A DNA stretch of 64,000 bases, taken from the NCBI GenBank assembly GCA_030149245.1, contig JASBRX010000015.1, forward strand, positions 1 through 64,000. Direction: 5' to 3'. Under the pieces are notes generated by a model. That model ran no database searches and was not told the origin of the DNA. It saw only the letters and a list, made by a program, of their open reading frames with translations. The DNA is from Sphingomonas bacterium (GTDB lineage: Bacteria; Pseudomonadota; Alphaproteobacteria; Sphingomonadales; Sphingomonadaceae). Positions 17,168 to 52,548 of this stretch are shown piece by piece; position 1 is the first letter of the stretch, and each line of letters begins with the position of its first letter. Both the position numbers and the translations under genes were made by a program.

Positions 17168-17245
17168 GTTCCCCTGCGAAAGCAGGGGTCCAGGGTCAAG
17201 CAGCGCAGCCCTCGTGGCTCTGGACCCCTGCTTTCGCAGGGGAAC
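17168..17245. repeat. Perfect 26-bp inverted repeat (REPIN-like) between sufD and sufS
   Basis: Arms at 17168-17193 and 17220-17245 are exact reverse complements over 26 bp. Each arm also folds on itself (CCCCTGC-GAAA-GCAGGGG), so the RNA can form either one long hairpin or two short GAAA-tetraloop hairpins. It lies in the only sizeable spacer (115 bp) within the suf operon and could affect mRNA stability or the sufS level. Confidence 0.85.
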
Positions 17246-21934: not shown

Positions 21935-21955
21935 ATCGGTCGGCATTGGTTGAAA

Positions 21956-22028
21956 GCCGTTTGTGCTGAGCTTGTCGAAGCACCGAAGCGCGGGCTAGCG
22001 GCCCTTCGACAGGCTCAGGGCAAACGGC
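21956..22028. repeat. REPIN-like inverted repeat, GCTTGTCGAAG family
   Basis: Arms at 21956-21980 and 22004-22028 match inversely at 22 of 25 positions or better (core GCTGAGCTTGTCGAAG). A second copy of the same family is at 48127-48210. The repeat sits between convergent genes (SH3 protein and rlmE), where it may also serve as a terminator. Confidence 0.8.
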
Positions 22029-27781: not shown

Positions 27782-27916
27782 CGTCACCCCGGACTTGTTC
27801 CGGGGTCCACCCCACAACTGGCGCGAAGTATGAGGCCCTTGCCGAACGGCTCCCACATGTCCCGAGATGCCAGGGACTGGATGACGAGTGGACCCCGGAA
27901 CAAGTCCGGGGTGACG
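27782..27916. repeat. Perfect 29-bp inverted repeat (REPIN-like), CACCCCGGACTTG family
   Basis: Arms at 27782-27810 and 27888-27916 are exact reverse complements over 29 bp, with a 77-bp centre. Each arm is a partial palindrome (CCCCGGA-CTTGT-TCCGGGG). It occupies nearly all of the space between the small membrane protein and the prepilin peptidase gene. It is the same family as 11644-11723. Confidence 0.88.
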
Positions 27917-32669: not shown

Positions 32670-33800
32670 TCACCCCAATGCGCCCGGCCGTCCCGCCGCC
32701 TCGGCGTAAAGCCTTGCATAGGCTGCAATCATTGCCTGTTCATCGAACAACGCACGCGCGCGCGCCTGGTTCGCCTTGCCCGCGGCGCGGCGGACGTCGG
32801 GATGGGCTGCGAGCAGCTCGATCCGGTCACGCAAATGCACCGGATTCCAGTCCTTGCTGATCGTCGAGACATTTTGTGGATCGACCATCTGCGCAACATC
32901 ACCGACAGGTGTCGAGGCGATCGGCAGCCCGGCGGCCATCGCCTCCATCACCGCAATCGGCTGTTGCTCGCTCTTCGACGACAGTGCGAAGATGTCGAAC
33001 AGGCCCATGTACTTGTGCGGATCGGGCAGGAAGCCGGCGAGCAGCACCTGTTTCTCCATGCCCATATTCGCGATCGTATCCTCGATCGCTTCGCGGTCCG
33101 GGCCTTCGCCGACGATCACCAATTGCGCCTTGGTCTTCATGCCGCCGACCGCGCGGACCAGCATCGGAATGTCCTTGACCGGCCGCAGCCCGGCCAGCGT
33201 GCCGACCACGACATGGCCGGGGAGGCGCTTGAAGCCGGGGATCGCCCTGGGATCGGGCTTGCGGCCATAGGCGGCGACATCGATGCCGTTGGAGATGCGG
33301 TGGAGCCGCGCCCGGGGCTGTTTCCAGACATGGTAAGCAACGCTTTCCAACTTGTGCGACGGCACGACCAGGCCATGCGCGGCGGTCAGCGCGATGCGGC
33401 GATACATGTTGCGGACGCGGTTGAGGCGGAATGCCTCGTCCGCGTTGAAGCCGTCCTCATGGTGGATCACCGACGGCATGTTCTTACCGAACACGCGCCG
33501 CGCCATCACCCCGTCGATCGCGCCCCAGTTGTAAGTCAGGACCAGGTCGAAGCGCGCCATGAACTTCGCAATCGCCTCATAGCGGGCGACCGAGGGCTTG
33601 CCGGTCAGCGGCGGCGGGTTTTGCGCGATTTCGTAGCGGATACCCTTGGCAATCGCGTCGCGGGCACTCAGCGCGCCGTCGACCCCCGAAACGATGACAT
33701 GCTTCGCCCGGTCGCCAAAGGCGTTCATCAGCCGGACGGCACGGGCTTCCTTGCCGCCCAGGTCGAAGCTGGAGTGGAGGTGCAGGATGTTGAGCATCAT
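32670..33800 (-). CDS. GT4-family glycosyltransferase
   Basis: 376 residues of GT-B fold. N-terminal acceptor domain: ILHLHSSFDLGGKEARAVRL with the Gly-Gly motif. C-terminal nucleotide-sugar domain: VVGTLAGLRPVKDIPMLVRA, LVIVGEGPDREAIE, VLLAGFLPDPHKYM and the E-x7-E motif in SEQQPIAVMEAMAAGLPI. It most likely transfers a sugar in polysaccharide or glycolipid synthesis, but no other polysaccharide genes are next to it. The gene stands alone, with an unusual GCGAC-rich region upstream of its start. Confidence 0.92.
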   Translation of the reverse strand: MMLNILHLHSSFDLGGKEARAVRLMNAFGDRAKHVIVSGVDGALSARDAIAKGIRYEIAQNPPPLTGKPSVARYEAIAKFMARFDLVLTYNWGAIDGVMARRVFGKNMPSVIHHEDGFNADEAFRLNRVRNMYRRIALTAAHGLVVPSHKLESVAYHVWKQPRARLHRISNGIDVAAYGRKPDPRAIPGFKRLPGHVVVGTLAGLRPVKDIPMLVRAVGGMKTKAQLVIVGEGPDREAIEDTIANMGMEKQVLLAGFLPDPHKYMGLFDIFALSSKSEQQPIAVMEAMAAGLPIASTPVGDVAQMVDPQNVSTISKDWNPVHLRDRIELLAAHPDVRRAAGKANQARARALFDEQAMIAAYARLYAEAAGRPGALG

Positions 33801-34133
33801 CGGCGCTTTGCAGTTGTCATTTTCGGGGCGGAGTCAACCGGGGTGTCGGACGAAGCGGACGTAAATGCGGGGGTTTTGGGCGGACGCGACCGCGGGGCGA
33901 CTGCGAAGCGACGGGTTCTGGACTGGGACGCGACAGGTGGGCGACACGCGGACGACGGCGCGCGACAAGAGGACAACCGGGACGCGACACCTGCGCGACT
34001 GTCATCCGCCGATGACGCGACGATGTCAGGCGGGATGTTTTGCGGGAGGGGGAGTCCGATCGTGTCCACCCCAAGGGTAGATCAGAATAAATCCAACATT
34101 GGAAGAGATTAGGCGGGCAAATAGTACGCGCCG
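33801..34133. other. Gene-free stretch containing a GCGAC word cluster
   Basis: 333 bp upstream of the glycosyltransferase gene with no credible gene on either strand. From 33886 to 34021 it contains nine copies of GCGAC at irregular spacing (11, 11, 22, 11, 21, 22, 11 and 22 bp), that is, close to multiples of 11 bp. The rest (34022-34133) is AT-richer and holds nothing I recognise. Confidence 0.6.
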
Positions 34134-34656
34134 CTTCTTCTTAGCCCTCTCCCGCTTGCGGGAGAGGGTTGGGTGAGGGTCTTCTTCTTTTTCTTTCTAC
34201 TTCCCGTCGCCAGCCGCTGAACCCGCGAGCGCGGCGCTGACCACGGTCAGCACGCCGTCGAGATTCTCCAGCACCTCGTTGTTCCAGAAGCGCAGGATGC
34301 GGAACCCCTCAGACTCCAAATAGGCCGTTCGCGCTGCGTCGCTCTCGACGCTGTGCTGGCTGCCGTCGATCTCGACGATGAGCATCGCCTCAAGACAGGC
34401 GAAGTCGGCGATGTAGGGGCCGATCGAGTGCTGGAAACGGAATTTGTGGCCAGCAATCTGGCGGTTACGGGCGGCTTGCCAGAAATGGCTTTCGGCTTCG
34501 GTCCGGGCGCGGCGGAGGGGAGCGGCGTGTGGGTTTATGGTGCGGCGGACGGGCGGCATTTGGGGAAGGTAGAAAAGAAGAACAGAAGAAGAAAGGGTAG
34601 AAGAAGAAGACCCTCACCCAACCCTCTCCCGCGAGCGGGAGAGGGCTAAGAAGAAG
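34134..34656. mobile_element. Putative 523-bp element: DUF559 gene between 56-bp terminal inverted repeats
   Basis: The left end (34134-34189) and right end (34601-34656) are reverse complements at 55 of 56 positions. Each end contains a perfect hairpin (CCCTCTCCCGC at 34145-34155 with GCGGGAGAGGG at 34158-34168; likewise 34622-34632 with 34635-34645), then a TTGGGTGAGGG tail, and CTT/TTC runs extending inward. The gene at 34197 fills the interior. No transposase and no clear target duplication are seen, so mobility is inference. The hairpin-plus-tail unit resembles the repeats at 48030-48062. Confidence 0.65.
34197..34559 (-). CDS. DUF559 protein (Vsr/PD-(D/E)XK nuclease-like)
   Basis: 120 residues, a complete DUF559 domain. 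Conserved parts are RARTEAESHFWQAARNRQI, GHKFRFQHSIGPYIADFACL, MLIVEIDGSQH and LESEGFRILRFWNNEVLENL. The Asp in ADFACLE and the E-x-D in VEIDG fit a PD-(D/E)XK-like active site, related to very-short-patch repair endonucleases. The cellular role of DUF559 proteins is not established. The ATG at 34559 lacks a good ribosome site. The gene is tightly framed by 56-bp inverted repeats. Confidence 0.9.
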   Translation of the reverse strand: MPPVRRTINPHAAPLRRARTEAESHFWQAARNRQIAGHKFRFQHSIGPYIADFACLEAMLIVEIDGSQHSVESDAARTAYLESEGFRILRFWNNEVLENLDGVLTVVSAALAGSAAGDGK

Positions 34657-34671
34657 AAGTGGGCTTCGGTC

Positions 34672-35547
34672 TTAAGTGACCCGCTCCAGCAGGCGGTCGA
34701 TTGCCGCTTCTGCCTCGGGCTCGGTCAGGGTCGGGGTGTGGCCGGTGTCGGCAATCGTCAGCAATTCGCTGCCAGCGACCTGCGCGTGCATGCGATCCGC
34801 TACTGCGGCAGGCAAAATGTCCGACGTTCCCCCACGCACGATCAGCAGGGGTTTGTCCTTCAGCCCCTCGAACGCGCGCCACATGTCGGGGCCGGCTTCG
34901 TTGCCGGGGACACGGAAGGGTTCGGCGATCTTCATGTCATAGTCGAGCACGATGCGGCCTGCGCTGGTCAGGCGGTGCGTGCGCTTGGCCATGTCGAGCC
35001 ATTCGGTGATGCCCCAATTGGGGTACACATGCGCGTTCGCCTCCGCCACCGCGCGGGCGGCGTGCATCCAGGTGGGGTGCCAGGTCGATTTGCCGACATA
35101 GCCACGGATGCGCCCAAGGCCCGCAGGATCGATCTCCGGCCCCACATCGTTGAGCACCGCGCCCGCGATCCGTTCGGGATGGGTCGAGGCCATCAGCATC
35201 GTGAGAATGCCCCCCAATGATGTGCCGACCGCGACGAAACGGTCGAGCTTCAGCGCCGCGACCAGCGCCTCAAGATCCTGGAGATAGGTGAGCGGCACAT
35301 AGGTCATCGGATCCTTGGCGTACGCGCTTTCGCCACGCCCGCGCAGTTCGACCGCGATCACGCGCCACTCGCCCGCCAGCCGCTCGGCCAGCTTCTCATA
35401 ATCGCGCGCGTTGCGGGTCAGGCCGGGGATGCAGATCAGCGGCGGGGGATCCGACCGGCCCGGATAGTCGCGATAATGCAGCCGCAACCCGTCGCCGGAC
35501 CACCAATAGCCATCGGTATAACTGGGCAGGTTGCGCGCGGTCGCCAT
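34672..35547 (-). CDS. Alpha/beta-fold hydrolase
   Basis: 291 residues. The oxyanion segment ICIPGLTRNARDY, the nucleophile elbow GTSLGGILTML (Ser), the acid Asp region IVRGGTSDILP and the catalytic His in DTGHTPTLTEP form a complete triad. The start at 35547 (MATARNLPSYTDGYWWSGDG) is chosen from the family N-terminus. The substrate is unknown; the family includes esterases, haloalkane-type hydrolases and lactonases. It ends 16 bp from the DUF559 element, which may have inserted just downstream. Confidence 0.88.
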   Translation of the reverse strand: MATARNLPSYTDGYWWSGDGLRLHYRDYPGRSDPPPLICIPGLTRNARDYEKLAERLAGEWRVIAVELRGRGESAYAKDPMTYVPLTYLQDLEALVAALKLDRFVAVGTSLGGILTMLMASTHPERIAGAVLNDVGPEIDPAGLGRIRGYVGKSTWHPTWMHAARAVAEANAHVYPNWGITEWLDMAKRTHRLTSAGRIVLDYDMKIAEPFRVPGNEAGPDMWRAFEGLKDKPLLIVRGGTSDILPAAVADRMHAQVAGSELLTIADTGHTPTLTEPEAEAAIDRLLERVT

Positions 35548-35617
35548 CGCCCCCCATATCGCCGCATGGCCGATTTCCCGCAAGCTCCGTTACCGTATCG
35601 CGTTCTGCCCCGCCACT

Positions 35618-35711
35618 GTCATCCCCGGGCAGGCGGGGATCCTTTGGCACTGCCGTGGCGGTTCCATCGTGGCGGACAGCCAAAATGGATCCCCGCCTGC
35701 GCGGGGATGAC
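35618..35711. repeat. REPIN-like inverted repeat, GTCATCCCCG family
   Basis: Arms at 35618-35642 and 35687-35711 match inversely at 24 of 25 positions (core GGATCCCCGCCTG). The repeat lies between the divergent hydrolase and selO genes, immediately upstream of the selO ribosome site. Confidence 0.85.
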
Positions 35712-35726
35712 GGAGGGGGCAGGCGC

Positions 35727-41766: not shown

Positions 41767-41850
41767 CCGTCGCCCCGGCGCAGGCCGGGGCCGCCCAGTT
41801 CGACGCGATCGCCCGCCTTGTGGCGGCCCCGGCCTGCGCCGGGGCGACGG
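41767..41850. repeat. Perfect 29-bp inverted repeat (REPIN-like), CGCCCCGGCGCAGGCC family
   Basis: Arms at 41767-41795 and 41822-41850 are exact reverse complements over 29 bp, each able to form its own hairpin. It lies between cysI and the DUF934 gene in an otherwise overlapping operon, as at 17168 and 40040. Confidence 0.88.
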
Positions 41851-48019: not shown

Positions 48020-48344
48020 GGATGTCGCTCCCCTCCCGGAACGGGAGGGGTCGGGGGAGGGGCGCGCGTCTGCGCGCCGCAAAGAGTCTCACCCGTTAGA
48101 GCATCGCGCATTAAACCCGACTCACACAGCCGTTTGTGCTGAGCTTGTCGAAGCGCCGCCTACCACGCTTGTTGGGAGCGGCCCTTCGACAAGCTCAGGG
48201 CAAACGGCTGTAGAGAGATCCAGATTTAACACGCGCAGCTCTCGGCAGCAGAGCGACGGCGGAGCATCGAGCCCCGCCAGCCGCTACACCCTCCCCTAGC
48301 CCCTCCCTTTCAGGGAGGGGAATGACATGGGCTCGCGGCCAGCC
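48020..48344. repeat. Repeat-filled intergenic region with nested inverted repeats
   Basis: 325 bp without a gene. Outer pair: a hairpin CCCCTCCCG-GAA-CGGGAGGGG (48030-48050) with a GGGGGAGGGG tail, and its inverted counterpart CCCCTCCCT-TTC-AGGGAGGGG (48300-48320). Inner pair: 27-bp arms at 48127-48153 and 48184-48210 (25 of 27 match) of the GCTTGTCGAAG family also found at 21956. The first hairpin may end the dcd transcript. Confidence 0.82.
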
Positions 48345-52494: not shown

Positions 52495-52548
52495 GGTGGC
52501 TTGCTTAATCCTCCCCGGCACGGGGAGGAATTTTGAATGGCCTGCCCG

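Follow-up and report, generated by a model that had tools for sequence, protein, structure and literature searches.

DUF559 nuclease genes enclosed by inverted triplex-type hairpin arms: a candidate REP/RAYT-like system with an unrelated nuclease

Introduction

The closest described relatives of the element reported here are two families of small bacterial repeats. In RAYT/TnpA-REP systems (REPtrons), a single small gene sits within inverted palindromic repeats, the repetitive extragenic palindromic (REP) sequences are scattered as inverted doublets (REPINs), including non-autonomous ones, and each repeat class is tied to an enzyme lineage (PMC3116915, PMC3733652). The second family, described in E. 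coli, cyanobacteria and Neisseria as BoxC, PIT element or TM triplex motif, is built from a C-block and a G-block that form a hairpin with a short loop, together with a G-rich third block, and occurs as intergenic, strain-variable inverted pairs (PMC4666352). Here we describe a unit of about 520 bp, consisting of two inverted hairpin arms around a gene for a DUF559 (PF04480) nuclease, in a 64,000-nucleotide stretch of a Sphingomonas genome (contig JASBRX010000015.1, positions 1 to 64,000; hereafter the window), and compare it with both families.

The unit shares the features listed above with RAYT/REP systems and has the block design and inverted pairing of the BoxC family. Unlike a RAYT unit, it encodes a DUF559 nuclease rather than a Y1 tyrosine transposase (PF01797), its arms lack the GTAG or CGTC tag (the window arms alone were inspected), and DUF559 units occur several per genome and differ in place between close relatives. 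Around the E. coli TM sites, PMC4666352 reports no remnants of transposase or integrase genes, and its main text does not mention DUF559; here, in contrast, the motif encloses DUF559 genes, and one copy lies beside the E. coli DUF559 gene ycjD. Insertion sequences (IS) and miniature inverted-repeat transposable elements (MITEs) also have inverted terminal repeats and short gene-less derivatives, whereas the arms here enclose one protein gene, for a DUF559 nuclease and not for any known transposase, and a target-site duplication is not readable. A literature search, judged mostly by titles and the beginnings of abstracts and with preprints and most subscription papers outside its reach, found nothing linking DUF559 to these repeats; within the same limits, DUF559 combined with repetitive extragenic palindromic, inverted repeat, REP, REPIN, ycjD, BoxC or intrastrand triplex returned no relevant literature. 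A study of Legionella evolution identifies recombination hotspots in segments that contain both a transposase and DUF559 (PMC12308824); its context differs, and we do not use it as evidence.

Enclosure of DUF559 genes by inverted arms

In the window unit, the two 56-bp arms are reverse complements of each other at 55/56 positions, with the single mismatch within the hairpin loop (Table 1). Each carries an 11-bp hairpin and a tail, as a preliminary description of this DNA had claimed and as re-reading of both arms bears out. The enclosed gene is an intact DUF559 gene of 120 residues (PF04480, E = 2e-34, 118.2 bits against a curated cut-off of 20.6) whose ends are separated from the arms by 8 and 42 bp, in line with the earlier figure of about 45 bp; the right arm ends 15 bp from a hydrolase gene, which corrects the 16 bp given before. 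The window has two matches to the pattern CCCTCTCCC..GGGAGAGGG, against none in 100 shuffles of it, and as single-stranded DNA both arms, on both strands, have hairpin-energy folding z-scores of -3.3 to -4.1.

To place the unit among other DUF559 genes, we collected 80 regions of at most 20 kb from Pseudomonadota, hand-picked among the best-scoring listed matches (40 per search) so as to spread over genomes and without regard to the flanks; eight come from one genome (G091). For each gene, the 300 bp upstream were compared with the 300 bp downstream using an inverted-repeat score that knows nothing of the motif, with a threshold of at least 18, and other open reading frames (ORFs) from the same regions served as controls. 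The threshold was reached by 33/40 DUF559 genes of the window's family against 3/510 ORFs (Mann-Whitney p = 1.2e-20), by 16/20 against 1/260 in the rest of the class, and by 12/20 against 1/237 in other classes of the phylum, which amounts to 61/80 DUF559 genes and 5/1007 other ORFs. Pyrimidine-stem hairpins within 260 bp gave the same picture, being present on both sides of 57 of the 80 DUF559 genes, on one side of 20 and on neither side of three; for 1090 control ORFs the corresponding numbers were 0, 74 and 1016. Of 100 arms with a resolved tail, 94 have it facing inward, and a further 34 arms could not be resolved. Related Vsr genes had no such arms (0/27, after three of 30 loci clipped by contig ends had been dropped). 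Among 42 extra loci, 29 scored at least 18; L041, L050, L053 and L095 were skipped, and L049, L097, L099, L101, L102, L105, L109, L110, L113 and L118-L120 were omitted since their places already fell in the 20-kb regions.

In the samples examined, then, enclosure by the arms is nearly confined to DUF559 genes. The predicted excess of flanked DUF559 genes is confirmed, and the arms are not equally common at unrelated genes, whether one takes the ORFs of either test or the Vsr genes. The shuffles and both enclosure tests rule out a chance pairing of arms and DUF559. The arms are likewise not general gene-end hairpins or terminators in these samples, because none of the 1090 control ORFs has hairpins on both sides.

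The source genome itself (3.11 Mb in 57 contigs, 82.7% complete) holds seven DUF559 genes, all adjoined by hairpins of the same design. Six of these lie within an inverted pair that scores at least 18; at the seventh, L021, the hairpins are one-sided.

Linked history of arm and gene, and hairpin number

Arms and proteins have a linked history. Across the 102 of 136 loci that score at least 18, arm similarity rises with protein identity (Mantel rho 0.25, reached in 0/300 permutations), and the correlation persists at 0.21 for pairs below 50% identity. When labels were shuffled within each of three related genomes, leaving out L021 for its one-sided hairpins, the observed between-genome correlations of 0.54-0.64 were never reached (0/2000). 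By these comparisons, arm subtype tracks DUF559 lineage, and gene and arm stay together over time.

The number of hairpins also rises with the number of DUF559 genes. In 99 genomes of the family, a general hairpin pattern, which does not capture every arm subtype (CCCCTCCC with GC-closed loops, for example, escapes it), found 4395 matches against 160 for its reversed control, and hairpin counts correlated with DUF559 copies, of which a genome may have up to 10 (Spearman 0.68). The 11 family genomes without DUF559 had at most 9 hairpins each; the source assembly has 255. Outside the family, at least 10 hairpins were present in 53/67 genomes with a strong DUF559 match and in 15/191 without a match; 28 genomes with weak PF04480 matches (E 1e-8 to 1e-3), two of which have at least 10 hairpins, were set aside.

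Units in other phyla and on plasmids

The pairing extends beyond Pseudomonadota. A Pseudanabaena DUF559 query yielded 80 further named loci, mostly from other phyla, and with the motif-blind score 38/80 reached 18 against 3/682 control ORFs. Cyanobacteria contributed 18/33 loci (controls 2/269), mixed other taxa 8/12 (0/97), and the few Pseudomonadota in this set 3/3 (0/20). In a plasmid collection, 14 of 43 records with a DUF559 match were examined. Six of the 14 loci score at least 18 (three Deinococcus, Pseudanabaena, Sinorhizobium meliloti pSymB and Sphingomonas parapaucimobilis), and at seven the motif is visible by eye in a one-sided or diverged form (Picosynechococcus, Neisseria gonorrhoeae, Azospirillum, Klebsiella, two Synechocystis and Photobacterium).

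Two observations on the neighbourhood of these plasmid genes stand apart. At L200, L206 and L210, on cyanobacterial plasmids, DUF559 adjoins DUF1156 or BREX pglX genes, and a defence-linked DUF559 subgroup is possible. At L203, L208 and L209, on Deinococcus plasmids, DUF559 units lie between genes of hpa and paa catabolic clusters.

Presence and absence of units in close relatives

We used the hydrolase gene beside the unit to find the matching site in related genomes. It is present in 38/41 genomes of the genus set (own included), and 30 of these loci, the window's own and those of 29 relatives, were examined. DUF559 was absent from the 1.5-kb flanks at all 29 relatives' loci, so that the relatives do not carry a repeat-free DUF559 gene there, and at 14 of them the hydrolase and glycosyltransferase genes that flank the unit lie close together without it. 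In the nearest relative, G414 (hydrolase 93% identical), the window site holds a solo, tail-less hairpin that consists of the outer half of each arm and shares the CTTCTTAG outer end; either a deletion left it behind or it represents the site as it was before insertion. In another relative, G091, a gene-less hairpin pair of another subtype separates the hydrolase gene from the glycosyltransferase gene (L171:2400-2545).

Five other units of the source genome have flanks that lie close together in G414 (85-96% identical), again without DUF559. The G414 sites matching L016, L019 and L021 have no such hairpin, that matching L020 has a solo window-type arm, and at that matching L022, whose flanks are matched in part, a single hairpin sits within 1.1 kb of other DNA. 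Of the seven units, L018 alone occupies the same place in both genomes. Since six of the seven units are absent at matching G414 sites and so differ between close relatives, units come and go.

Arms also occur without the gene. The left arm matches 41 places in its own genome, its own two arms included, and among these matches are seven inverted pairs that lie close together and lack the DUF559 gene. In the sampled Pseudomonadota regions, hairpins away from DUF559 cluster, with 49/81 successive distances below 150 bp.

Relation to the BoxC family and E. coli ycjD

TM motifs are defined by three blocks of 6-15 nt, loops of 1-6 nt and a purine third strand; they have been reported in more than 260 genomes, number 23 in MG1655 and vary in their loci between strains (PMC4666352). 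The window arms, with blocks of 9-9-9, loops of 6 and 2 nt and a purine third strand, fit this definition. On paper, the tail GGGTGAGGG could pair antiparallel on GGGAGAGGG as the third strand of a purine triplex.

In E. coli K-12, CCCCTCACCCTAACCCTCTCCCCAGAGGGGCGAGGGG lies about 165 bp downstream of the DUF559 gene ycjD and is of the BoxC design that has been studied as the PIT element or TM triplex motif. A second, decayed hairpin can be made out by eye at the ycjD stop codon, and no hairpin was found upstream of the gene. Of 5426 complete E. coli genomes, 3364 cover at least 80% of the ycjD stretch (L023:6180-6780). ATCC 25922, the one ycjD-less genome inspected, is not a clean empty site because a cluster of RND efflux genes sits in that place. 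According to PMC4666352, the five inverted TM pairs of E. coli always join a type A with a type B motif; in each of the three gene-less pairs inspected in the source genome, a CCCTCTCC arm is similarly paired with one of the CCCCTCCC type.

The DUF559 protein

The AlphaFold2 model of the window protein has a mean pLDDT of 81.8 and a confident core. Its best match among solved structures is the Neisseria DUF559 protein 3hrl, followed by the catalytic domain of the homing endonuclease I-Bth0305I (3r3p, E 5e-5); Vsr (1vsr) is a weak match at rank 10 (E 0.11). The model would place the protein in the catalytic-domain fold of both enzymes, from which it differs in setting: I-Bth0305I is, by name, a mobile-intron protein, and Vsr genes are without such arms. 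The window protein has no match to the Vsr profile PF03852 at E <= 0.001, and the source assembly has no PF03852 match either. The putative catalytic residues E23, D52, E63, D65 and H69 are 97-100% conserved across 136 DUF559 copies, and L018 and its orthologue L196, the single in-place pair, give a dN/dS of 0.14. The model also weakly matches mitochondrial ribosome proteins of Toxoplasma and Tetrahymena.

In Caulobacter, the SOS response that arises when a cytosine methyltransferase is lacking requires VsrA, a DUF559 protein (PMC12907096), which suggests that DUF559 proteins can damage DNA in cells.

Proposed mechanism and alternatives

Taken together, anatomy and statistics are best read as a REP/RAYT-like system built on an unrelated, homing-endonuclease-like nuclease, which would do the cutting and transposition. 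We give a probability of roughly two in three to the proposal that the unit's DUF559 protein cuts at the arms and so moves both the unit and gene-less arm pairs, as RAYTs are thought to do for REPs. The protein would recognise the folded arm, hairpin plus third-strand tail, in single-stranded DNA, for instance at a replication fork, and would nick or cut there; host repair or replication would then complete copying into intergenic sites, and gene-less arm pairs would be MITE-like offspring. The preliminary description had suggested that DUF559 moves or maintains this repeat family in the manner of a RAYT but with another nuclease; the pairing of gene and repeat that this presupposes is now supported, while the protein's part as mover keeps the standing of a proposal.

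Because the arms are of the BoxC, PIT and TM triplex design, such a system would supply the missing mover of that old repeat family. We consider it probable, if with slightly less assurance, that a bacteria-wide kind of mobile DNA with triplex-arm ends is moved by DUF559 nucleases dedicated to it, with a Vsr/homing-endonuclease fold in place of DDE, HUH, serine or tyrosine enzymes, and that BoxC, PIT and the G/C triplex repeats of cyanobacteria and sphingomonads are its gene-less offspring. BoxC-type repeats are widespread and, according to PMC4666352, have no mobility gene near their E. coli copies, and a one-gene partner that surrounds itself with this motif in several phyla would make their origin testable. 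If the proposal is true, it also gives a function to a family that is still called a domain of unknown function and is now often named after a repair endonuclease, and it suggests that a REP/RAYT lifestyle has evolved repeatedly, from unrelated enzymes.

Several observations weigh against this reading. Recognition, cutting and copying by the DUF559 protein are steps that we infer, and the linked history speaks for linkage, not recognition, because a gene and arms that travel together share a lineage anyway. The expectation that repeat number tracks DUF559 holds for the overall correlation and for the comparison outside the family, though the 31 single-copy family genomes have a median of 2 hairpins, like DUF559-free genomes. 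The reversed-pattern control also correlates weakly with DUF559 copies (rho 0.30). Outside the family, hairpins number below 10 in 14 of the 67 genomes with a strong DUF559 match, and the 15 hairpin-rich genomes without a match, among them G246, G151, G235 and G293, may have lost the enzyme or may have another mover. The pairing is weaker in Bacteroidota (7/25 against 1/239 controls) and not significant in Chloroflexi (2/7 against 0/57, p = 0.14), at least two of the 38 scoring loci (L276 and L280) have arms of another kind, and Thermoactinomyces, the single Bacillota locus, has no motif. The ycjD element is one-sided, with its tail facing away from the gene. At the G414 empty sites no target-site duplication or exact junction was readable by eye, and gain and loss of a unit were separated at the window site alone. 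The 49 close pairs away from DUF559 are of mixed orientation (in 11 the tails face inward, in 11 they run in the same direction, and 10 have a tail on each side), and the reversed-sequence control has 55 hairpins in whole regions against 119 away from DUF559. Finally, the authors of the VsrA study interpret that protein as acting in 5-methylcytosine-linked mismatch repair (PMC12907096).

The same evidence can be read with the nuclease in a different role. The likeness of the protein model to I-Bth0305I, its best structural match beyond DUF559 itself, would also suit an enzyme that cuts resident solo hairpins and lets the unit copy itself in by gene conversion rather than transposition, and G414 offers hairpins of the kind such an enzyme would need: the solo hairpin with the matching CTTCTTAG outer end at the window site, the solo arm at the L020 site and the hairpin within the other DNA at the L022 site. 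We think this homing variant unlikely, as the sites of L016, L019 and L021 have no such hairpin and the one at the window site could equally have been left by a deletion between the CCCTCTCCCGC direct repeats that the two arms carry. Alternatively, another enzyme or replication slippage might spread the arms, with DUF559 as selected cargo between them. Hairpins do far outnumber DUF559 genes (255 to 7 in the source assembly), the 15 hairpin-rich genomes lack the gene, and a shared history of arm and gene is expected for cargo too; against this, not one of the 1090 sampled control ORFs lies between two hairpins, several phyla use the same gene, and the source assembly has no match to the RAYT profile PF01797, which sets aside a RAYT of the same genome as mover, although one could be missed because the assembly is 82.7% complete. 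On balance we regard a passenger gene as quite improbable.

Least probable of all, in our view, is that DUF559 is a housekeeping enzyme, either a Vsr-like repair nuclease or one that processes hairpins, with the arms serving as expression control (terminator or attenuator) or as a maintenance substrate. Its fold is related to Vsr, albeit by a weak match, the VsrA-dependent SOS response would be compatible with such a role, and the dN/dS of that single orthologue pair indicates purifying selection. Yet Vsr genes themselves are without arms, units differ between close relatives, a genome may hold up to 10 copies, and arms also occur elsewhere without the gene.

Other candidate identities for the window unit were tried and rejected. 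Positions 33800-34900 have no Rfam match at E <= 1 that would indicate a structured RNA. The window protein has no PADLOC match to a defence system; of two other copies tested, L020 weakly matched two models. Matches to PHROG phage families are weak and carry annotations without function.

Features of the window

The coordinates of the unit and of its neighbours are collected in Table 1.

Table 1. The DUF559 unit and flanking genes, in window coordinates.
Feature	Position	Strand	Remarks
Left arm, 56 bp	34134..34189	+	CTTCTTCTTAG, hairpin, TT, GGGTGAGGG tail, TCTTCTTCTT, from outward to inward
Left-arm hairpin, 11-bp	34145..34168	.	CCCTCTCCCGC-TT-GCGGGAGAGGG
Left-arm G-rich tail	34171..34179	+	GGGTGAGGG, gene-facing
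DUF559 (PF04480) gene	34197..34559	-	363 bp, 120 aa, intact; profile match
Right arm, 56 bp	34601..34656	-	inverted copy of the left arm
Right-arm G-rich tail	34611..34619	-	CCCTCACCC on the + strand, gene-facing
Right-arm hairpin	34622..34645	.	CCCTCTCCCGC-GA-GCGGGAGAGGG
Alpha/beta hydrolase gene	34672..35583	-	neighbour of the unit, used to locate the empty site
Glycosyltransferase gene	32670..33800	-	on the opposite side of the unit from the hydrolase

A looser hairpin pattern found one extra match in the window, at 52510, where a third BoxC-like hairpin, CCTCCCCGGCACGGGGAGG, of the other arm subtype, occupies 52510-52528. Further inverted hairpin pairs, such as TCATCCCCG / GTCACCCCGG, lie at 27782-27916, 17168-17245, 35610-35719 and 41767-41850; one begins with CGTC, and they resemble the CGTC-tagged REPs described in PMC3733652, which are said there to be without a dedicated transposase. 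A second repeat family, built around CCTTCGACAAGCTCAGGGCAAACGG, forms inverted pairs at 21955-22028 and 48126-48211.
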